This document shows, one piece after another, positions 1,115 through 10,024 of a stretch of 10,279 nt of DNA; position 1 is the stretch's first letter; every line of letters starts with the position of its first letter. The stretch is from the NCBI GenBank assembly GCA_025360985.1, contig JANYBA010000179.1, positions 1 through 10,279 on the forward strand, given 5' to 3'. The notes below the pieces were generated by a model, which saw only the letters and a list, made by a program, of their open reading frames with translations, was not told where the DNA came from and did no database searches. A program made the translations under genes and the position numbers. The DNA is from Gammaproteobacteria bacterium. Lineage in GTDB: Bacteria > Pseudomonadota > Gammaproteobacteria > Xanthomonadales > Xanthomonadaceae.

Positions 1115-2374
1115 TCAGGCGATCCGCCTGACAAATGAGAGGAACCAGGGCGCGAGGCTGAAGCCGAATCTGGGGTTTATTTCGAAGATGCATGGGCGGC
1201 CGTCGACGATCTTGTAGTTGATGCAGCAAAGTCCGTCGAAATCGATCGACCGCAGTATCGCCGCAAACAGGCCCAGGTGATGATTGCGGCAAATCCTCGA
1301 GTAGCTCGCCGCGCAGCCCTTGCCCTTCGTGTGCAGATCGTCCTTGAATACGAACTTGATGCTGATCGCGCAGGCGATTTTCCCGTTCCGGACAAGGATG
1401 TGCGTGGTGTATTCATCCCTGCCGAGGACGAATCGCTGACGAAAATAATCCGGATGGTCCAGCAGCTCGGAATATTCCAGCTCCTGTTCCGCATTCGAGA
1501 CGACGTGGCAATTCGCGGCACACTCGTCCAATCTTTTTTTCAGTATGTAGGGGTAAGGCAGGCGGCCGCCCATTTCCGGTACGCATGCGCCAAAGCCATT
1601 GGCAATAAGTGCCTTGTTCAACAAATGCTTGTCGTCGCACAGGACAATGCTTTCCATGCTCGGGATCGGAATCGGATTGTCGGCGAGCAGCTGGCGCAGG
1701 CCATCGAGTTCAACGAGCTCGGATATCTTCAAAGGCACGACCAGATCGTGGCTGCGGATATTCTCCTGGCTAAGTTCGGCAAAACTCACCTGGTCGCGCG
1801 TGTCCCGAAACGAAGTCCGAAGCAATGCCTCCCACTCAGTCTTCGGAAACAGGATTTTCAGCTTGCGTCGCACGAACCGGCGCGAGCGAAAATTCTCGAG
1901 ATCCAGGAATAGCCGGTTGGTGTTGAGGCCATCCGTTTCGCCATCGGGCGTACGAAACACGTAGTCCGTTTCAAATTTGGTGGTTTTGCTCCTGATCCAA
2001 TCGCTCGCCCGGAGGAAATAACCCTTACCCACCCGGTAGATCGTCAAAAGTAAATAGGCGAACGCGGCAATGGCGACGGACTGCCCAATCAACAGGGCGC
2101 GGCCGTGCCGGAACGACCCCGTCTCCCGCGAAATGACCCAGCTGGCGGCGAGCGCGACAAGCGCCGGCGTTACGGCGATGAACGGCCTGGCCAAAGGCGC
2201 CACGCTGAGGACTTTGCACATCGCGAACGAATAGGCGATGCATGCAGCGACGAGCACGGGAAACACTTGATCGTTCGCCGGCAAGGCAACGGCATGGACG
2301 AACGCCAACCACGCGAACGAAGCGACGATGAATATCTTCAGATCGCGGCGGCGCGTTTTCGTCATGCTGGCCAT
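1115..2374 (-). CDS. Membrane-anchored ATP-grasp domain protein of unknown function, between trpE and trpG
   Basis: I recognise the fold but not the specific enzyme. The 419-residue protein has about four hydrophobic segments (residues 12-31, 35-57, 64-82, 92-113), then a long cytoplasmic part. That part ends in an ATP-grasp module: [14 protein letters not shown] near 247-260, the candidate ATP-binding lysines in YILKK at 276-280, [13 protein letters not shown] at 313-325, and the metal-binding motif [10 protein letters not shown] at 397-406 (Glu398, Asn400). ATP-grasp enzymes typically ligate a carboxylate to an amine or thiol through an acyl-phosphate; the substrate cannot be read here. It starts 18 bases after trpE and stops 25 bases before trpG, so it is probably cotranscribed. 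Its base composition is lower than its neighbours: one 60-base line (1441-1500) is 50% GC against 70% in trpE (3541-3600). This suggests acquisition. The first ATG is used because a stop lies just upstream in frame; the ribosome binding site is poor, and Met4 is an alternative start. Confidence 0.85.
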
Positions 2375-2392
2375 GGCAATATCAAATCACCC

Positions 2393-3883
2393 TCAAAGCC
2401 CGCTCGCCGCTTGCGCCACGGCGCGAAACAGCGCGCGGCCCTTGTTCATGGTCTCGTCCCATTCCGTCGCCGGGTCGGAGTCGTAGACGATGCCGGCGCC
2501 GGCCTGCACGTGCAGGCGGCCGTCCTGGATCACCGCAGTGCGGATGGCGATGGCGGTGTCGGCGTCGCCCCACCAGCCGAGGTAACCGACCGCGCCGGAA
2601 TAGATATTGCGCTTGATCGGTTCCAGCTCGCGGATCACTTCCAGCGCGCGGATCTTCGGCGCGCCCGACACCGTGCCCGCCGGGAACGTCGCCTTGAGCA
2701 CGTCGGCGAATTTCTGGTCGCCGCGCAGCTTTCCCGTGACTTCGGAAACGATGTGCATCACGTGCGAGTAACGCTCGATCACGAATTGCTCGCCGACCTT
2801 GACGCTGCCCGGCTCGGCCACGCGACCGACGTCGTTTCGGCCGAGGTCGATCAGCATCAGGTGCTCGGCGCGTTCCTTGGGATCGGCGAGCAGCTCGGCT
2901 TCCAGCGCGAGGTCCTGCTCGTGGGTCGCGCCGCGCGGACGCGTACCCGCGATCGGCCGAACCGTCACTTCGCCGGCCTGCAGACGCACCAGGATTTCCG
3001 GCGAGCTACCGACCACCTGGGTGCCGCCGAGGTCGAGGAAGTACATGTAGGGCGAAGGATTCATCGCCCGCAGCGCGCGGTAGACGTCCACCGGTCGCGC
3101 CCGGAACGGCACGCTCATGCGCTGGCTGAGCACGACCTGGAAAATATCGCCGGCACGGATGTAATCCTTGGCCGTTTCCACCGCGGCGATGAAACCCTCG
3201 CGGGTGAAGCCGGACACGAAGTCTTCTTCTTTCAGCAGCGAAGGATCGAGAACGTCCGGGTAGGAAGCGCCGGCATGGCGCAATCGATGGACCAGCGCGT
3301 CGAGCCGACGCTGCGCCTTGGCCCAGGCCTGCGGCTCGGAAGGATCCGCGTGCACGATCAGGTACAGGCGGCCCTTGAGGTTGTCGAATACCGCGACTTC
3401 CTCACTGAGCATCAGCAGCGCATCGGGGGTGCCGAGCTGGTCGGGTTTGTGACCCCCGCTCTCAATCAATTCGCGCAGCCGAGGCTCGATCCAGCCAATG
3501 GATTCGAAGCCGAAATAACCGACCAGGCCGCCGGTGAATCCCGGCAGTCCGGGCAGGCGCGGCACTCGAAATTCTTCGCGCAGGCGGTCGATCTCGGCGA
3601 GCGGATCGGCGAGTTCGCGCGCTTCGATGACATCGCCGTGCTCGCGCACTTCCAGCGAGTGACCACGGAACACATACGTGCGTTTGGCCGGCAAGCCGAT
3701 GATCGAATAGCGGCCCCAGCGCTCGCCGCCTTCGACCGATTCGAACAGGTAGGTGTGCGGGCCGTCGGCCAGCTTGAGGTACACCGACAGCGGCGTATCG
3801 AGGTCGGACAGCACTTCGCGCACGACCGGGATACGGTTATGACCGGCGGCGGCGAGCTGTCGGAAGTCGTCGGAAGAGAGCAA
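2393..3883 (-). CDS. trpE: Anthranilate synthase component I
   Basis: TrpE converts chorismate plus ammonia (supplied by TrpG) to anthranilate and pyruvate, the committed and normally Trp-inhibited step. The 496-residue protein has the usual length. The N-terminal domain includes the regulatory-region stretch TYLFESVEGGERWGRYSIIG. The chorismate-binding domain shows IAGTRPRG at 311-318, LADPKERAEHLMLIDLGRND at about 332-351, TFPAGTVSGAPK at 399-410 and QAGAGIVYDSDP at 460-471. The start is uncertain. The frame is open up to a GTG at 3940, but no ATG lies in frame before the conserved N-terminus, and the TTG at 3883 falls exactly where Xanthomonas-type TrpE proteins begin (about seven residues before the conserved FxxLAAxGxNRIPVVREVL). 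No Shine-Dalgarno sequence precedes it. A Trp-codon leader peptide lies about 95 bases upstream, pointing to attenuation. Confidence 0.96.
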   Translation of the reverse strand: MLSSDDFRQLAAAGHNRIPVVREVLSDLDTPLSVYLKLADGPHTYLFESVEGGERWGRYSIIGLPAKRTYVFRGHSLEVREHGDVIEARELADPLAEIDRLREEFRVPRLPGLPGFTGGLVGYFGFESIGWIEPRLRELIESGGHKPDQLGTPDALLMLSEEVAVFDNLKGRLYLIVHADPSEPQAWAKAQRRLDALVHRLRHAGASYPDVLDPSLLKEEDFVSGFTREGFIAAVETAKDYIRAGDIFQVVLSQRMSVPFRARPVDVYRALRAMNPSPYMYFLDLGGTQVVGSSPEILVRLQAGEVTVRPIAGTRPRGATHEQDLALEAELLADPKERAEHLMLIDLGRNDVGRVAEPGSVKVGEQFVIERYSHVMHIVSEVTGKLRGDQKFADVLKATFPAGTVSGAPKIRALEVIRELEPIKRNIYSGAVGYLGWWGDADTAIAIRTAVIQDGRLHVQAGAGIVYDSDPATEWDETMNKGRALFRAVAQAASGL

Positions 3884-3913
3884 GAGTATGGTCCGGGAAT
3901 CGGGAGGGGTAGC

Positions 3914-3956
3914 GCCGAGGCGTCGGCTCGGCCATTGCACTATCGCGACCGCCGAG
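3914..3956 (-). promoter_or_regulatory. Candidate trp attenuator: mutually exclusive RNA hairpins
   Basis: In the transcript, a central GCCGAG (3932-3927) is complementary both to an upstream CTCGGC (3956-3951, 18-base loop) and to a downstream CTCGGC (3919-3914, 7-base loop). Only one six-pair stem can form at a time, as in antiterminator/terminator pairs. A GGCGC within the Trp-codon region can also pair with GCGCC just upstream of the first CTCGGC, so ribosome position could influence the choice. The downstream stem is not followed by a U-run, so a classical intrinsic terminator is not evident. Control could instead be Rho-dependent or act on trpE translation. The pairings are seen; the function is inferred. 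Confidence 0.45.
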
Positions 3957-3978
3957 GCGGGCGCAATGCCACGTCAGT

Positions 3979-4041
3979 TCAGCGCCACCATCGCCAGTTA
4001 AGGCTGGCGAAATCGTGCACTAGGGCGTGTTCCCGGACCAT
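3979..4041 (-). CDS. trpL: trp operon leader peptide (20 residues, three Trp codons)
   Basis: This small frame lies between the PrsW gene and trpE, on the trpE strand. It encodes 20 residues beginning MVREHALVHD and ending NWRWWR, then TGA. Three of its last five codons are TGG; Trp is normally one of the rarest residues, so a run like this immediately upstream of trpE is the hallmark of a leader peptide that senses charged tRNA-Trp through ribosome stalling. The perfect hairpin CGCCAG-CCTTAA-CTGGCG (4009-3992) lies over the first Trp codon. No Shine-Dalgarno sequence precedes the ATG; instead a -10-like TAAAGT ends exactly six bases before it, the spacing expected for a leaderless mRNA. An internal GTG at 4020 is an alternative start. 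Function is inferred from position and codon content. Confidence 0.75.
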   Translation of the reverse strand: MVREHALVHDFASLNWRWWR

Positions 4042-4047
4042 GTCGGC

Positions 4048-4075
4048 ACTTTATCAGGGCCACGCGCCAATGCAA
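4048..4075 (-). promoter_or_regulatory. Putative sigma-70-type promoter of the trp operon
   Basis: Reading the minus strand, TTGCAT (4075-4070) and TAAAGT (4053-4048) resemble -35 and -10 elements separated by 16 bases. Six bases (GCCGAC) follow, then the ATG of the leader peptide, so transcription would begin at or beside that A (about 4041). Both hexamers match consensus in four of six positions. It sits in the only sizeable gap between the PrsW gene and trpE (3884-4105), where a trp promoter is expected. Confidence 0.5.
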
Positions 4076-4105
4076 GCCACAGGCGCAACATGAACCGCGT
4101 GGACA

Positions 4106-5125
4106 TTATTTGCCCAGCATGTACAGCTGCCACAGGTCGCGCCGGCTCATGTGCAGCAAGGGTTTGATGGTGAGCAGGGCGGTCGGGCCGACGCTGCGCT
4201 CGAGATAACGCATTTCCTCGAGTTTCTCGGCGACCTGCGGATCCTCGACGACCTCGATGCCGTTCTCGCGCATCATCAATACGCCCTTGGCGCGCAACGC
4301 CAGTTCCACGTAAATGCGCAGGTAGCACACCAGGTCGGCCACCACCGGGCCGCTGAAACGGCCGCGCAGCCCGTGCAGGTAGCGACCGGTCGGCGATTCG
4401 CTGAACGCGCCGGAATCGAGCATTTCCAGCAATTCGCGATCGTTGTCGAAGCCCTGCCCGATCCAGCCCTCGACCGCGCGCTCGCTGCGCAGGAACACCC
4501 AGTACATCAGCAGCGGCAGCGATACCATCACCAGCATGGTCTCCTGGACCGGCGGCAACATGAAGCTGTTGAACGCCGCGTGGATCAGCACCGCCACGAA
4601 CAGCGGCGGCAGGACCGCGCGCAAATCCATGGCGCCGCGGCGGTCGGTATTGGCCAGCAGCATTGCCGCGAAAATCGCCTGCACGCCGCCGTGCAGGACC
4701 GCCGTGCCGAAACCGCGCACGATCCAGACCGCCACGTGGCTATTGGCCAACTCATTGAGGTAGTAGAGGTTTTCGACCAGCGCAAAGCCGGCGCCGACGG
4801 CGAAGCCAAACACCGAAGCGTCGACCAGGAAGCCGATCCGATGCCGGCGCACCAGCACCAGGATCACCGTTGCCTTGAAAGTTTCCTCGACCAGTGGACC
4901 GCCGTAACGCGAATAAGCGGCGAAATCGAAGCCAGACGCCCGAATCAGCCACGAGTTGGCCAGGAAACTGGCGCCAGCGGCGAGCATGCCGAGAACGATC
5001 ACCAGAACCACGTCGCGCAGCCGCACCAGCTTGTAGCTGTCCAGCAGCATCAGCGTCGCCAGGAAGCAGAGTACCGGCAGCAGGCCGATGCACGCGCGCA
5101 ACAACACCGCCAGCGCCACGATCAC
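4106..5125 (-). CDS. PrsW-family intramembrane metalloprotease
   Basis: The 339-residue membrane protein carries the PrsW pattern in order: GPLVEETFK (Glu80, Glu81, Lys84), GAGFALVENLYY (Glu118, Asn119), a histidine in TAVLHGGVQAIFA (His145), and HAAFNSF (His182, Asn186). Several hydrophobic segments (about 2-28, 38-60, 85-92, 100-122, 138-157, 170-190, 194-211) hold these residues in the membrane, followed by a soluble C-terminal tail of about 125 residues. Bacillus PrsW makes the first cut in the anti-sigma factor RsiW; many PrsW homologues have no known substrate, and none can be assigned here. I use the GTG at 5125: it forms a GTGA overlap with the stop of the preceding metallopeptidase gene and has AAGG four bases upstream. 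The open frame extends further back but only within the neighbouring gene and without hydrophobic or family-like sequence. Confidence 0.85.
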   Translation of the reverse strand: MIVALAVLLRACIGLLPVLCFLATLMLLDSYKLVRLRDVVLVIVLGMLAAGASFLANSWLIRASGFDFAAYSRYGGPLVEETFKATVILVLVRRHRIGFLVDASVFGFAVGAGFALVENLYYLNELANSHVAVWIVRGFGTAVLHGGVQAIFAAMLLANTDRRGAMDLRAVLPPLFVAVLIHAAFNSFMLPPVQETMLVMVSLPLLMYWVFLRSERAVEGWIGQGFDNDRELLEMLDSGAFSESPTGRYLHGLRGRFSGPVVADLVCYLRIYVELALRAKGVLMMRENGIEVVEDPQVAEKLEEMRYLERSVGPTALLTIKPLLHMSRRDLWQLYMLGK

Positions 5126-8070
5126 CGCACCTTGAGTGAAAACAGCCACTCTTCGCCGACTTTGTCGCCGTGCTCGAATCCTCGCGCATAGCCCAGCGAC
5201 ATCGTCATCGGCAAATGATTGAGCACCGAGATGTTGAAATCCAGCTGCAGCCCCGCGTTGGTGTAGGTCCGCCGGCCGCCGGCCAGGCTGTGGTCGACGG
5301 TCAGCGCACCGACGAAAACAGCCGGTCGGATGTAGCTCAGGTAGAACCCGGGGCTGCCGACCGCCTCGAAACGGATCGGCGGGGCGTTCCACTCGAGCAC
5401 CGACTTGAAGAATCGCTGGCCACCGACCGCGTCGATGTCGAATCCCGGAAAGGTCTGGGGCAGGCGGTAGCGCTTGACTTCGCGATTGTCGACGTAGTTG
5501 TTCTGGAACCCGCCGAAGTAGAAGTTGGCGAGGCTGTTGCTGCTCTCGCCATTGGCGCTGCCGGCAGCGTTGTACAGCCAGATCGACGAGTTCTTCAGCG
5601 GCAGCGCGAAGCCGAAGTCGAAGGTCCCGTAGTACTTCGGCACGGTGCCCTCGATGGTATGGTCAACCGTCATGAACACCGACCAGTCGTAGCCCTTCTC
5701 GTGGTCGACGCTGGCCTGGGACCGCCGGGCGTTGCTGAACTCGAGGCCGACCTCGGCGGATTCGAGCTCGCTGACGTTGCTGGCCACGTTCTGGTTGGAC
5801 GGCAGCGTATCGAGTCCGGTGAACTTGCTGACTTTGGCGCTGAAATCGAGCCGCCTGGGATCGTCCAGGATCAAGGACTTCTTGTAACCGAGGCTCAGGG
5901 CATCGCCTTTCCGGCTCCGCTTGGTCGGCCCGAACAGGTCGTAGAAGTCCGCCAGGTTGTGCCAGTACTGCGCGTGCCAGTTCAGCGCCTTGAAATCGAC
6001 GTTGGCGTGGAATTTCTCACTGGAAGGCACGTCGCCCGTGATCGAATAGCTGGTCGCGACGGACAGGTTGTACAGATGCAACGGATCGGCGAAACCGAAC
6101 TGCCAGCCCAACGCCGCCGTGCCCAGGTAACCCTCCAGGATCGGGTAGCGATTGTCCGTGCGCATCTCGTGGAGCGGCACGTACTTGCCCTTGTTGGTCG
6201 TCATGGAATCGAGCGGGACCGCCGCCGGCGATCCCACCTGCCACGATTTGACCACCGGATGCTGCCGCACGATTTCGTTCCCCAGGAACGTGATCGCGCC
6301 GACGTCCGGCAATGGCACCGGGTTGAGCATCATCGGCACGAAACCGGTGCCGGTGTATTCCAGGGCCAACAGCGTTCCATCCGGGCGCGGGATCGGCCGG
6401 AAGAACCCCGTTTCCGCATTGGTGACCGCCTCGATCTTGTTGCTGGCGATCTCGAACCGGAAGATGTTCGAGACGCCCGTGTAGTAGGAACTGCCGTACA
6501 GGAAGCGCCCGTCGGGCGAGAACACGAAGCCTTCGGGCATGGCCACCCCGAAGTCGAACTGCGCCAGGGGTTCGAACACGCCTTTGGAGAGCGCGTCGAT
6601 GGCGAACACGCGCAGGAACTTCCGGCCATCGATCTCTTCCACCGTCGCCGACAGCAGCTTGCCGTCGGGCGATATGTCCAGGTCGTAGAAAACCTGCCCG
6701 TAGGCGGGCTCCTTGACCTGCTTCCAGTCCTTGTACGGGAATGGGCAGCGCACCACCGTCGCGTAGCCGTTCTCGTGGCGCACTCCCCACAACGATCGGT
6801 CCGCCTTGTTGAAGGCGAGGTCGCCGATGCGGGAATCGCGTTGCAGCATGCGCACCGAACCGCTGCCGAGGTCGAGCGCCATCAGGTCGCGGTAGGCGAT
6901 GTTGTCGCTGGTGTAGAAAAACGTCCGCGTGGCCGGATCGAAAGCCGTCGATGCGACCTGGAACTTCCGCGATCCCTTGAGATCGACGAGGCGCGTGAGA
7001 TGGCCATCGGCGAGCGAGACCTTGCCGATGTGGGGAACCACGCCGGGGTACTGAAACCCGCCGATCATCGTGCCGTCGGCTTCGTCGACGTAGGATTTCG
7101 AAATGGACCCGAGCGCCACCGAACTCACCCGATGCCCGACGGTCAGCGGGAACTGCCGCACCTGCTTCAGGTTCGCTTCCTGGAACCCGTGTTCCCAGGC
7201 GATCCACTCGTCCCAGGCCGTCGCCAACGGCTTGCCAAAAACGCGGGCGAACTGGTCGCCGTAGTAGCGATCGCTTTGTTCGTCGCGGCTGAGCCACTGG
7301 ATGACTCGTTCCGGGGAATAGACCAGCGCGAGGTAGCTGAAGAACCGGGTGCCGTACAGGTAGGCATTGGTCGTCGTCTGGAAATCGATTTCCGTTCCCT
7401 CGGAAACCAGGCCCAGTGGCCGGTAGAAGTGCGCGGCGTCGCGCACCATCGCGCGAAAGACCATTTCGTCGTAGCCACCCTGGGCGCGGCCGATTCCGCC
7501 GGACATCCAGGTTTCCATGAATACGGCGGAACCTTCGGTATACCAGCGCGGCGTGCTGTCGCGGGGTGTGGTGAGGTAGTTGTAAAGGATGGTTTCCGGG
7601 TGTTCGTTGGTTACCCAAGGCTTGCCGCCGAAGAATCGCCGCCAGAAACGGTCACGCTGGTTCCACGCATCCAGGGTGGCGATATGGGTGAGCTCGTGGT
7701 TCGCGAGCGAGTAGAAGCGATCGCTGGTGACGAAGGTCTCGAAGGTATGGTTTGCCGGCGAAACTTCGAGCGATACCAGGTTTCGTGGCGAAACTCCCGC
7801 CGAGCCGTTGGCGTAGTCGGTGAAATCGGTGAGGACGACGGTGACTTCTTCGTACGGCTTCCAGTGGTAGATCTTTTCCTGGAACAGCAGGGAATTGATC
7901 AGGCTGCGGGCGGCGTGCGGCGACAGGTAAGTTTGGTTCGGATCCTGGTAGACCAGGCGCAACTCATCGGTCTGCAGCTGGTCCAGGGCCAAGGAATCTG
8001 CGTACGCGGCCTGGCTCCCGAACATCGAGCACGACAACAGCCCGGCTGAGCACGTCGTTACAACCTTCAT
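5122..8070 (-). CDS. Exported zinc-metallopeptidase-like protein with beta-propeller and C-terminal beta-barrel-like region
   Basis: The 982-residue protein starts with a signal peptide (MKVVTTCSAGLLSCSMFGSQ, probable cleavage AYA|DS after residue 24). A zinc-peptidase module follows: HELTH at 125-129 and WYTEGSAVFMETW at 176-188, with Glu179 the likely third ligand. This resembles the peptidase MA-like gluzincin group. Residues about 345-580 hold repeated propeller-type blades, such as ISPDGKLL, FSPDGRFLYG and RPDGTLLALEY. From about 645 to the end the sequence alternates polar and hydrophobic residues with many aromatics and glycines, as in outer-membrane barrels, though the last residue is Arg rather than the usual Phe. 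The ATG at 8070 is preferred over the upstream frame to 8196 because it gives the signal peptide and has GGGGA upstream; the longer version would begin inside the preceding terminator region. It is probably cotranscribed with the PrsW gene. The substrate is unknown. Confidence 0.85.
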   Translation of the reverse strand: MKVVTTCSAGLLSCSMFGSQAAYADSLALDQLQTDELRLVYQDPNQTYLSPHAARSLINSLLFQEKIYHWKPYEEVTVVLTDFTDYANGSAGVSPRNLVSLEVSPANHTFETFVTSDRFYSLANHELTHIATLDAWNQRDRFWRRFFGGKPWVTNEHPETILYNYLTTPRDSTPRWYTEGSAVFMETWMSGGIGRAQGGYDEMVFRAMVRDAAHFYRPLGLVSEGTEIDFQTTTNAYLYGTRFFSYLALVYSPERVIQWLSRDEQSDRYYGDQFARVFGKPLATAWDEWIAWEHGFQEANLKQVRQFPLTVGHRVSSVALGSISKSYVDEADGTMIGGFQYPGVVPHIGKVSLADGHLTRLVDLKGSRKFQVASTAFDPATRTFFYTSDNIAYRDLMALDLGSGSVRMLQRDSRIGDLAFNKADRSLWGVRHENGYATVVRCPFPYKDWKQVKEPAYGQVFYDLDISPDGKLLSATVEEIDGRKFLRVFAIDALSKGVFEPLAQFDFGVAMPEGFVFSPDGRFLYGSSYYTGVSNIFRFEIASNKIEAVTNAETGFFRPIPRPDGTLLALEYTGTGFVPMMLNPVPLPDVGAITFLGNEIVRQHPVVKSWQVGSPAAVPLDSMTTNKGKYVPLHEMRTDNRYPILEGYLGTAALGWQFGFADPLHLYNLSVATSYSITGDVPSSEKFHANVDFKALNWHAQYWHNLADFYDLFGPTKRSRKGDALSLGYKKSLILDDPRRLDFSAKVSKFTGLDTLPSNQNVASNVSELESAEVGLEFSNARRSQASVDHEKGYDWSVFMTVDHTIEGTVPKYYGTFDFGFALPLKNSSIWLYNAAGSANGESSNSLANFYFGGFQNNYVDNREVKRYRLPQTFPGFDIDAVGGQRFFKSVLEWNAPPIRFEAVGSPGFYLSYIRPAVFVGALTVDHSLAGGRRTYTNAGLQLDFNISVLNHLPMTMSLGYARGFEHGDKVGEEWLFSLKVR

Positions 8071-8221: not shown

Positions 8222-8773
8222 TCAGTCGTTGGCGTGCTTGTCGGTCGCGTCGTTGGCCAAGGCCGCACGGAAACCATCGCTCGCCAGCGCCGCGCGGAAG
8301 CCGTCGTTCGCCAAGGCGGCGCGGAAGCCGTCGTTCGCCACGGCGGCGCGGAATCCGTCGTTGGCCAAGGCGGCGCGGAAACCGTCGTTCGCCAGGGCAG
8401 CGCGGAAGCCGTCGTTCGCCAGGGCAGCGCGGAAGCCGTCGTTCGCCAGGGCGGCGCGGAAGCCGTCGTTCGCCAGGGCGGCGCGGAAGCCGTCGTTCGC
8501 CATCAGGGCGCGGAAGCCGTCGCTGGCCATGTAGGCCGAGAGCTTGCGATCGCCCTGGATCATCCGGAATGTGTCGGACTGCAGGAACTTCGCAGTCCCT
8601 TCATCACCGAGAACGACGTCGGAAGCACCGATCGGAGCCGCCTGGTAGCGCTGCGCCGCGACGATGGTGCCGGCGACATCACTGGGCTGTGGCGGGTAGT
8701 TCAAACCGATGTAAGCAACCGCGCCGATGCTGGCGGCGAGACCCAAGAGAGCCAATTTCTTGCTGTTCTTCAT
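8222..8773 (-). CDS. Membrane-anchored or exported protein with ten DGFRAALAN repeats, function unknown
   Basis: I do not recognise a family. From the ATG at 8773 the protein has 183 residues. A short basic start (MKNSKK) precedes a hydrophobic stretch LALLGLAASIGAVAYIGLNY (residues 7-26), which fits an uncleaved signal anchor or a signal peptide. A non-repetitive region (about 27-84) with a degenerate repeat-like SDTFRMIQ follows, then exactly ten 9-residue units of consensus DGFRAALAN (85-174), and a polar tail DATDKHAND. This start is favoured by a strong ribosome binding site (AAGGAAGG, six bases before ATG) and by poor coding character just upstream. The same frame is nevertheless open back to 9148, so the protein could be the C-terminal half of a longer anti-sigma-like protein. 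A strong terminator follows. It probably belongs with the sigma-factor cluster, as a target or an accessory. Confidence 0.65.
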   Translation of the reverse strand: MKNSKKLALLGLAASIGAVAYIGLNYPPQPSDVAGTIVAAQRYQAAPIGASDVVLGDEGTAKFLQSDTFRMIQGDRKLSAYMASDGFRALMANDGFRAALANDGFRAALANDGFRAALANDGFRAALANDGFRAALANDGFRAAVANDGFRAALANDGFRAALASDGFRAALANDATDKHAND

Positions 8774-9148
8774 GACGATCCTTCCTTGTCCGTGGTGCGG
8801 TGATGTTGCCAGAGCGTCCCGTTTGGGCGCTATTGGTACCCCTGTACCTATACCTGAAATCAAGTCGTTTGCAGCCGGTGCATGACTGGAATACGGGTCA
8901 AGGCCCGAAAGGTTGGTCGGTCCGGTGGATTTCGACGGCAGCCCGGCGACAATTCTGTCGTGCAGTGCAGCATCAACCGGCGCCGGCGCCATCCCGGCGA
9001 GCATGGCGCTGACCTTCACCAGGTCGGCATGCAAGGCGGCGGCATCCGGATCGGCAAGCAGGCGCTGGCCGAGCTCGGCGCGCGCGCCGGCGTCGAGTTC
9101 GCCGTCGATTGCGGCGTGGATCAGTTCGAGGGTGCGCGGGTCGACCAT
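8222..9148 (-). CDS. Anti-sigma-factor-like reading frame, open through the repeat protein (alternative long gene model)
   Basis: The ATG at 9148 begins one base after the sigma factor stop (TGACATG) and is preceded by AAGGGAAAG, so it is very likely translated and coupled to the sigma gene. Residues 1-70 (TLELIHAAIDGELDAGARAE and onwards, ending LHDRIVAGLP) resemble the short helical cytoplasmic domain of zinc-less ECF anti-sigma factors. No stop occurs before 8222, so the frame continues through a linker (71-125), the hydrophobic segment and the DGFRAALAN repeats, 308 residues in all. That topology (cytoplasmic sigma-binding domain, one membrane helix, periplasmic sensor) would suit an anti-sigma factor. 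Against it, codons 72-125 have G or C at the third position in only 27 of 54 cases, versus 49 of 59 in codons 2-60, and a strong internal ribosome binding site precedes Met126. A truncated anti-sigma gene reading by chance into the next gene is equally possible. Confidence 0.55.
   Translation of the reverse strand: MVDPRTLELIHAAIDGELDAGARAELGQRLLADPDAAALHADLVKVSAMLAGMAPAPVDAALHDRIVAGLPSKSTGPTNLSGLDPYSSHAPAANDLISGIGTGVPIAPKRDALATSPHHGQGRIVMKNSKKLALLGLAASIGAVAYIGLNYPPQPSDVAGTIVAAQRYQAAPIGASDVVLGDEGTAKFLQSDTFRMIQGDRKLSAYMASDGFRALMANDGFRAALANDGFRAALANDGFRAALANDGFRAALANDGFRAALANDGFRAAVANDGFRAALANDGFRAALASDGFRAALANDATDKHAND
8252..8521 (-). repeat. Tandem array of ten 27-bp coding repeats
   Basis: Ten contiguous 27-base units, in phase with the codons, encode DGFRAALAN with small variations (ALMAN, AAVAN, AALAS). 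Adjacent units are identical at 8387-8413 and 8414-8440, and again at 8441-8467 and 8468-8494, while the outer units have diverged. This is the pattern left by recent unit duplication. There are no spacers, so it is not a CRISPR array. Confidence 0.95.
8835..8848. promoter_or_regulatory. Short inverted repeat upstream of the repeat-protein gene (possible operator)
   Basis: GGTAC-CCCT-GTACC is a perfect five-base inverted repeat about 60 bases upstream of the ATG at 8773; a related GGTATA lies beside it on the minus strand. It falls in the stretch with weak coding character, where a promoter or operator for a separate repeat-protein gene would sit. No convincing -35/-10 pair was found. Such short palindromes also arise by chance. 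Confidence 0.25.
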
Positions 9149-9149
9149 G

Positions 9150-9689
9150 TCAGAGCTTTCCCTTGGCAAGCAGCAAGTCGCGCAGCGCCTGGCGGGCGGT
9201 GAACAGCCGCGATTTCACCGTTTTCACGGCGCAATCCAGGATCTGCGCAATCTCTTCGTAACTGCATTCCTGCACGTGCTTGAGCACGATGACAGTGCGG
9301 TATTCCATCTTGAGCGACATCAGCGCCCGCTGGATGGCGGTATCGGACTGACCCTGCGCGGCCAGGGCATCCGGGCCGCCGTGTTCACTCTCGACATCGT
9401 CGACCAGGGGCTCCGAACGCTGCCGGACCCGCACCAGGTCGACCGCCTCGTTGACCGCGATCCGGTACAGCCAGCTGGAAAAACGCTGGTTCGGATCGAA
9501 CTGGTCGAGGTGTTCGTATGCCTGGAGAAAGGCGGTCTGGGTCACGTCGCTGGCGTCCTCACGGTGGTTCAGGACCCGGTACGCCACCCCGAAGACTTGC
9601 CGCTGGTAGCGGGCAAGCAGGACTTCGAAGGCCCGGCGATCACCGCCCTGGCATTGCTGCACCAGCGCGGCGTCTGAGTCGTCAGTCAT
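9150..9689 (-). CDS. ECF-type RNA polymerase sigma factor (sigma-70 family)
   Basis: This 179-residue protein directs core RNA polymerase to a specific promoter set. Region 2 spans about residues 8-93: DRRAFEVLLARYQRQVFGVA, the EDASDVTQTAFLQAYEHLDQ helix, then RFSSWLYRIAVNEAVDLVR. A short linker (about 94-115) leads to region 4 with the helix-turn-helix SYEEIAQILDCAVKTVKSRL (143-162). This two-domain layout and length are typical of the RpoE-like ECF group; region 3 is absent. I start at the ATG at 9689, which gives the usual MTDDSDAALVQQCQ opening; upstream in-frame sequence is not family-like. No good Shine-Dalgarno sequence is seen. It lies 38 bases after the STAS gene and one base before the anti-sigma-like frame, the common arrangement of an ECF sigma gene with its regulator. 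Confidence 0.95.
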   Translation of the reverse strand: MTDDSDAALVQQCQGGDRRAFEVLLARYQRQVFGVAYRVLNHREDASDVTQTAFLQAYEHLDQFDPNQRFSSWLYRIAVNEAVDLVRVRQRSEPLVDDVESEHGGPDALAAQGQSDTAIQRALMSLKMEYRTVIVLKHVQECSYEEIAQILDCAVKTVKSRLFTARQALRDLLLAKGKL

Positions 9690-9727
9690 GAATACGGGCG
9701 CGAGTGGAAAAGGTTGGTCGCATCGTT

Positions 9728-10024
9728 TCAGCCCGGCGTGCGCTCGACGTCGAAGACCTGGTCGAAACCCGAGAACTTGAAAATGTCGTGGATATGGCTG
9801 TTGACGTTGACCAGCCGCAAACGGCCGCCGCCGGCCATCAGGCGCTTGTGCGCCTTGAGCAGCAGGCCCAGTCCGGCGCTGGAAATGTACTCGAGCCGGC
9901 CGAAATCGAAATCGGCCGGACCGTCGGCCGCGTCCAGGAAGGCCTGAGCCTTCGCGCACTGGGCGGCGTCCAGCCGACCGCTAAATTCGATCCTGCCCTT
10001 CTCGCCAAAGCCGATCTCGAACAT
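9728..10024 (-). CDS. STAS-domain anti-sigma factor antagonist (RsbV/SpoIIAA-like)
   Basis: The 98-residue protein is a single STAS domain. Such proteins switch partners: unphosphorylated, they bind an RsbW-type kinase and free what that kinase holds; phosphorylated, they let go. The signature YISSAGLGLLL is present; alignment with FMDSSGLG of SpoIIAA makes Ser49 the likely phosphorylated residue (Ser48 takes the place of the usual Asp). The C-terminal HIHDIFKFSGFDQVFDV matches the closing helix and strand of the family. The start is fixed by a TGATG overlap with the upstream ATPase gene and a purine-rich GGGGGGG ribosome binding site. The overlap implies that the two proteins work together. 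Confidence 0.92.
   Translation of the reverse strand: MFEIGFGEKGRIEFSGRLDAAQCAKAQAFLDAADGPADFDFGRLEYISSAGLGLLLKAHKRLMAGGGRLRLVNVNSHIHDIFKFSGFDQVFDVERTPG

Follow-up and report, generated by a model that had tools for sequence, protein, structure and literature searches.

The window, by which we mean the whole stretch of 10,279 nt analyzed here, carries trpE on the reverse strand, preceded on the same strand by a short leader ORF, trpL, and by promoter-like elements. The TrpE proteins of relatives align from TTG 3883, which is therefore the likely trpE start; GTG 3940 is a possible alternative in-frame start if the frame is extended. The SD-like motif of the window trpE, GGAC at 3891-3894, is weak and lies just before the inferred start, and GGAC is found at a similar place in four other loci (L003, L004, L006 and L008). 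The genes and sequence elements of the region are as follows.

2393..3883, reverse strand: trpE, anthranilate synthase component I, with Pfam matches to Chorismate_bind and Anth_synt_I_N and a TTG start placed from its homologues
3979..4041, reverse strand: trpL, a leader ORF of 20 codons, MVREHALVHDFASLNWRWWR followed by the stop, with an ATG start, from sequence and family comparison
3985..3996, reverse strand: conserved core TGG CGA TGG TGG (Trp-Arg-Trp-Trp), including the rare Arg codon CGA
4048..4053, reverse strand: -10-like hexamer TAAAGT, 6 nt before the trpL ATG, from sequence and family spacing
4070..4075, reverse strand: weak -35-like hexamer TTGCAT (3/6 consensus), 16 nt upstream of the -10 box, from sequence

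The trpL frame is absent from the annotation. The sequence-only reading had placed a 20-codon frame ending in NWRWWR at 3979-4041 on the trpE strand, with three TGG codons in its final five positions and a stop about 95 bases before trpE, and the sequence agrees exactly on each of these points: the 3' end reads AAC TGG CGA TGG TGG CGC TGA (N W R W W R stop), TGG makes up three of the last five sense codons, and the stop is 95 nt from TTG 3883. When the 223 nt before TTG 3883 were dinucleotide-shuffled, an ORF of 6-60 codons with at least three TGG per five codons appeared in 53 of 20,000 shuffles. Conservation across the family is stronger evidence for trpL than this rarity. The window ORF is a genuine trpL, and it is a short variant of a family-wide element.

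The distribution of this element was assessed in 80 named loci, 30 loci from 61 genomes, 20 further regions, 80 more regions and the window; the last 80 were picked among the matches listed, out of 245 matching genomes in a total of 257. After 32 duplicates were dropped and L001, L002 and L083 excluded, 178 distinct trpE upstream regions were kept. The 9-mer TGGCGATGG occurs in 90 of these, the window included, and served as the main criterion for a trpL-type leader. The resulting leader count is likewise 90 of 178, being the 9-mer matches without L094, which has no leader, and with L003, whose core has diverged and which was added by hand; it is a lower bound, since diverged leaders lacking the 9-mer, such as L039, are missed. 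Leaders were assigned in 49 of the 80 named loci, and the 9-mer was present on either strand in 49 of the 80 regions L133-L212. The genomes concerned include those named Lysobacter, Luteimonas, Pseudoxanthomonas, Stenotrophomonas and Xanthomonas. Seven uncounted regions (L026, L039, L041, L044, L064, L158 and L197) nevertheless have an open frame with a stop inside trpE; L039 has three Trp codons, L026, L041, L044, L064 and L197 have one in the core, and L158 has no clear core.

Within the genus of the window genome, the leader was found in only two of the 25 genomes examined (25 of 27, with G007 and G009 left out): the window genome itself and G008, whose locus L085 has an upstream sequence identical to that of the named locus L003. 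It was not found in the other 23, among them the sister genome G005, where TrpE is 97% identical and an rpe-like ORF, so labeled from a reading of its translation rather than from a database call, directly precedes trpE with no leader. Conservation in related genomes, which the sequence-only reading had put forward as the check on its claim, is therefore seen in much of the wider family (90 of 178 regions) but breaks down within the genus (23 of 25 genomes lack the leader).

The core is nearly invariant at the codon level. The final 170 nt of the 178 upstream regions contain 90 occurrences of TGG-Arg-TGG, and in 89 of them the Arg codon is CGA. By comparison, CGA accounts for 1.8% of the Arg codons of trpE, as counted in those leader-bearing loci for which the full trpE was available.

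A TANNNT box with at least 3/6 matches lies 6-9 nt before the chosen leader start in all 90 leaders. The box-to-start spacing is 6 nt in 49, 7 in 34, 8 in 5 and 9 in 2 of them, a distribution that is partly circular, as the box was searched at 4-9 nt and was also used to choose among in-frame starts. A feature that does not depend on the start choice is a G at the second position upstream of the hexamer, present in 95% of 83 distinct promoters. Near -35, the family profile holds only a T in 67%, 23 bases before the -10 box. Because of the spacing of the -10 box, trpL is probably leaderless, with transcription predicted to begin at or next to the ATG. Beyond the -10 box, the 83 distinct trpL promoters also show A at -6 (64%) and C at -4 (81%) alongside the G at -2 (95%), and these additional conserved bases are perhaps an extended -10 or an operator.

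The leaders differ in where they stop. Seven of the 90 (window, L003, L055, L181, L043, L183 and L050) end shortly past the Trp codons. The other 83 leaders have a frame that continues without a stop until it is within 4 nt of the aligned trpE start, or runs beyond it. The distances from the first Trp codon to the aligned trpE start fall into 12 length classes in these 83 leaders, all in one frame, which is partly trivial because length changes inside trpE keep trpE's own frame. A plain Shine-Dalgarno pattern, sought with no frame filter, is present in 77 of the 83, and in each of these the distance between the first match and the first Trp codon is divisible by three. The leader ends 38 nt past the aligned trpE start (+38) in 74 cases, and there its stop spans a trpE codon ending in T, namely GCT in 69, ACT in 3 and TCT in 2; GCT makes up 1.9% of the Ala codons in trpE, as counted in the 46 of the 74 loci with full trpE. 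A stop at the +38 place also occurs in one (L111) of 16 earlier-stopping leaders and in 10 of 88 regions with no assigned leader, of which seven look like diverged leaders with the frame kept. This pattern of codon use suggests that the stop inside trpE is under selection.

Outside the Trp core, we looked for codon-position bias in the leaders and saw none. Before the core, 35 pairs show 59, 52 and 55 differences at codon positions 1, 2 and 3, and 29 of 129 codon changes are synonymous, with 27% expected per single change; after the core, 32 pairs show 47, 60 and 41 differences, and 22 of 117 changes are synonymous, with 30% expected. As protein-level conservation is absent outside the core, selection seems to act on the path of the ribosome rather than on the peptide. 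A conserved leader peptide was rejected on these grounds and on the absence of any Pfam or NCBIfam match above cut-off for six leader peptides; the one Pfam match to a leader peptide, DUF6202 at E 0.011, is below its cut-off, and a protein search with the 47-aa leader of one relative returned no candidate. The same two observations make it extremely improbable that the peptide acts in trans, for which a precedent exists in the Sinorhizobium meliloti peptide peTrpL, described in a passage of PMC7298713.

Folding of the window leader RNA gave a minimum-energy structure composed of three helices, P1, P2 and P3.

4030..4041, reverse strand: 5' arm of P1, the first 12 nt of trpL and a perfect complement of the trpE ribosome-binding region
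3888..3899, reverse strand: 3' arm of P1, TTCCCGGACCAT, which holds the GGAC at 3891-3894
3991..4010, reverse strand: P2, a 7-bp hairpin (TCGCCAG / CTGGCGA) that includes the first Trp codon and has a counterpart in the 26 relatives of alignment A1
3908..3989, reverse strand: P3, 11 bp, in which GGTGGCGCTGA (3979-3989) pairs with TCGGCGCTACC (3908-3918), with further hairpins enclosed

The 5' arm of P3 covers the second and third Trp codons up to the stop. P1 is a perfect helix of 12 bp, and the longest obtained in 1000 shuffles of the preceding 135 nt had 9 bp; a separate count, in which any 12-bp inverted repeat arose in 66 of 1000 shuffles, was set aside because it includes palindromes unable to form a hairpin. 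The predicted unpaired probability of the trpE ribosome-binding site (RBS) is 0.03, whereas 300 shuffles average 0.53. In L003, the sole other leader found in the genus, the short leader is kept and the fold differs from that of the window. One explanation to be weighed for the window genome is that an ancestral family leader persists there as a decaying remnant that no longer regulates trpE. The shortened ORF, the weak SD and the lack of a leader in 23 of the 25 congeners examined, sister species included, speak for it. Against it, nothing is missing from the core 12-mer, the promoter spacing or any of the three helices, P1 being fully paired over its 12 bp, and we consider decay quite improbable.

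The relatives were modeled in the same terms, with the SD sought in the leader frame for the 83 long-frame leaders. Its median unpaired probability is 0.16 in the native leaders and 0.455 in shuffled ones, the native value being lower in 79 of 83. The partner of the SD (anti-SD) mostly lies 15-25 nt upstream of the first TGG. A ribosome footprint placed at the first Trp codon raises the modeled median to 0.393 (up in 69 leaders, down in 5), whereas a footprint at the leader start gives an SD access of only 0.18 (up in 15, down in 4). When a model ribosome was slid along 52 leaders, the SD was accessible up to the Trp codons and closed 15-18 nt past the first of them, with medians of 0.42 at the first TGG, 0.18 at +18 and 0.18 with no ribosome.

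As different clades use shifted registers, the pairing was assessed by permutation of duplexes. In 52 non-redundant leaders, matched anti-SD:SD duplexes average -13.76 kcal/mol and swapped ones -11.11 kcal/mol (sd 0.35), with none of 5000 permutations reaching the matched value, and 17 divergent representatives gave z = -3.8 (3 of 5000). Controls yielded z = -1.0 for a reversed anti-SD, -1.8 for a reversed SD and +3.3 for a post-Trp segment; a segment 5' of the promoter scored z = -2.0, in keeping with an inflation of these permutation tests by kinship among the sequences. A complement-strand control (z -5.7) is an unfair null, since Watson-Crick pairs survive complementing. By the comparison of matched with swapped duplexes, the anti-SD:SD pairing co-varies between species. 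The Trp-arm hairpin shows little difference (-20.06 matched, -19.86 swapped) because its 5' arm hardly varies.

Column-wise analysis was also performed. Alignment A1, of 26 sequences, has two inner hairpins, one with the first Trp codon and the other with the second and third; 96.2% of cells are paired in the P2 counterpart and 93.6% in a short P3 counterpart, with little two-sided change. For alignment A2 (18 sequences), RNAalifold predicted a single hairpin that spans the Trp codons, without P2, and in neither alignment did the column-wise analysis return the anti-SD helix. Column-wise covariation is modest: the covariation score is higher than in shuffles (1 and 0 of 500 attain it), while pairs with two-sided changes are no more numerous than in shuffles (2 against 2.2 and 5 against 4.4). 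The A1 consensus leaves two bases of the core CGA (3991-3993 in the window) unpaired, but A2 and the window fold pair most or all of it, so base pairing may or may not be the reason for its near invariance.

The hairpins downstream of trpL had been taken in the sequence-only reading as a sign of tRNA-Trp-dependent attenuation. The leader ORF does fit a sensor of Trp-tRNA, but the hairpins look unlike a transcription attenuator, and no terminator was found. Classical ribosome-mediated transcription attenuation would place an antiterminator/terminator switch between trpL and trpE, and several features recall it: the position of the leader and its Trp codon cluster resemble such switches, GC-rich segments 3' of trpL could compete (CTCGGC occurs twice, and either copy can pair with the intervening GCCGAG), and a leaderless trpL with transcription attenuation is documented for S. 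meliloti in part of PMC7298713. A consensus scan of window positions 3800-4200, however, found no terminator-like site, and in 82 of the 83 long-frame relatives no T-run longer than 3 lies in the interval from the Trp codons to the aligned trpE start; a transcription terminator between trpL and trpE was rejected on these two results. Space is also short: the first Trp codon precedes the aligned trpE start by only 58-64 nt in 59 of the 83, and 45-51 nt separate it from the SD in 80, which leaves little room for a switch. A known Rfam leader was likewise rejected: the window and ten relatives have no match at the gathering threshold, and in the window and L019 no Trp leader appears among matches with E values as high as 10. 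We regard transcription attenuation as unlikely and favor reading the downstream structure as a mask over the trpE RBS.

Masking could also be combined with termination, in that the RBS would be closed and Rho would then end the unused trpE message in a C-rich, G-poor stretch before or within trpE. The RNA strand of window 3910-3881 has 14 C and 4 G in 30 nt, and PMC1262725 considers, for the cys leaders of mycobacteria, attenuators that depend on Rho and have no hairpin. In most relatives, however, this stretch contains no stop in the leader frame, so that ribosomes may cover it, and such a combination appears to us rather improbable.

Taken as masking of the trpE RBS, the data, which are computational throughout, lead us to propose, with moderate confidence, that translation of trpL senses charged tRNA-Trp and controls translation of trpE, i.e., translational attenuation. 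In the free leader RNA, P1 would pair an early leader segment with the trpE SD region, while P2 and P3 inside it would hold the Trp codons. With ample Trp, ribosomes would clear the Trp codons, the helices would form, and trpE would be closed. With little Trp, ribosomes would stall at TGG, P2 and P3 would be blocked, the masking segment would be held open, and trpE would be translated. The ORF, its conservation, the promoter spacing, the co-varying pairing and the negative search for a terminator are results of computation; stalling, queueing, the direction of control and the start site are all inferred here.

The way in which a stalled ribosome would reach the mask is predicted to differ between the window and its relatives. 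In most relatives, the stalled ribosome itself would reach the anti-SD. In the window, the SD partner is the very 5' end of trpL, so that opening would require another ribosome to queue or initiate behind the one that has stalled. In the window model, the RBS remains closed (0.03) when one ribosome alone occupies the Trp codons, and it opens (0.65-0.66) with a ribosome on codons 2-9 (partly 10) or with a second one behind the stalled one. Because a single ribosome at the Trp codons leaves P1 closed, queueing, or ribosome loading during transcription, is proposed as the mode of action in the window.

For the family, we tentatively suggest, at a little short of even confidence, a more specific arrangement in which a leaderless ORF serves as the sensor, crosses the trpE SD and start codon in a frame other than that of trpE, and ends within trpE at a site under selection. 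The same ribosomes would sense Trp, hold open or release the SD, and occlude or couple trpE initiation, and the window would represent a shortened variant that is clamped at its 5' end and depends on queueing. If this is true, a switch for amino-acid biosynthesis would be built from overlapping genes instead of a terminator. Textbook Trp attenuation is a transcription switch, and here the same job is apparently done at the level of translation in much of the family. In most members found, the sensor frame overlaps the regulated gene and appears to constrain one trpE codon, which would offer a compact system for leaderless translation, ribosome queueing and overlapping-frame control.

Parts of this arrangement have counterparts elsewhere. 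In erm-type translational attenuators, a ribosome stalled on the leader frees a masked initiation site, as proposed here, but the signal is an antibiotic rather than uncharged tRNA, and the leader ORF is not known to run into the regulated gene. The MS2 coat-lysis overlap likewise has an upstream frame that ends a few tens of nucleotides inside the downstream gene, although these are phage genes and the coupling is to termination, not to amino-acid sensing. According to portions of PMC7298713, the S. meliloti attenuator shares with the window family a short leaderless ORF with Trp codons just before trpE, but control of trpL-trpE(G) there is by transcription termination giving the sRNA rnTrpL, whereas in the window family no terminator is seen and the SD is apparently masked. 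Streptomyces lividans trpL1, as treated in part of PMC8079986, is a leaderless 18-aa leader with three Trp codons before trpE; unlike in the window family, two hairpins and a U-rich stretch with Rho-independent termination are described there. The actinobacterial LEU element before leuA, covered in part of PMC1262725, resembles the proposed mask in that a segment of a biosynthetic leader pairs with the SD of the next gene, but the run of Leu codons is itself the SD partner, with a predicted pseudoknot, whereas in the window family a distinct segment, located upstream of the Trp codons, has this role.

Precedents exist for Trp leaders, for leaderless Trp leaders and for leaders that mask an SD. 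The least expected part is the overlap with a selected stop inside trpE, which is a feature of the relatives and not of the window. Among the matches listed from the open-access literature, no report of a trp leader in Xanthomonadales was found; in the portions covered, PMC2965389 has one Xanthomonas passage, which concerns rpsL, and PMC8632094 does not mention Xanthomonas. For the leader, Rfam gave no match in the window or ten relatives, and Pfam and NCBIfam gave none above cut-off for six leader peptides.

The surroundings of trpE and trpL show some further variation. The upstream neighbor of trpE in the window (4106-5392, reverse strand) is a PrsW-family protease gene, with similar DNA upstream in L007 and L100, and the rpe-like ORF takes this place in the sister genome (L084); the region just 5' of trpE thus differs between close relatives. 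Between trpE and trpG, an ORF at 1115-2374 (reverse strand) has a weak ATP-grasp match just below cut-off, and other sequence is found at its place in L084. Farther away, a gene at 8222-9169 (reverse strand) encodes many near-identical C-terminal repeats of the GFRAALAND type and adjoins an ECF-type sigma factor gene (9150-9959, reverse strand); its product is perhaps a repeat-bearing anti-sigma factor.
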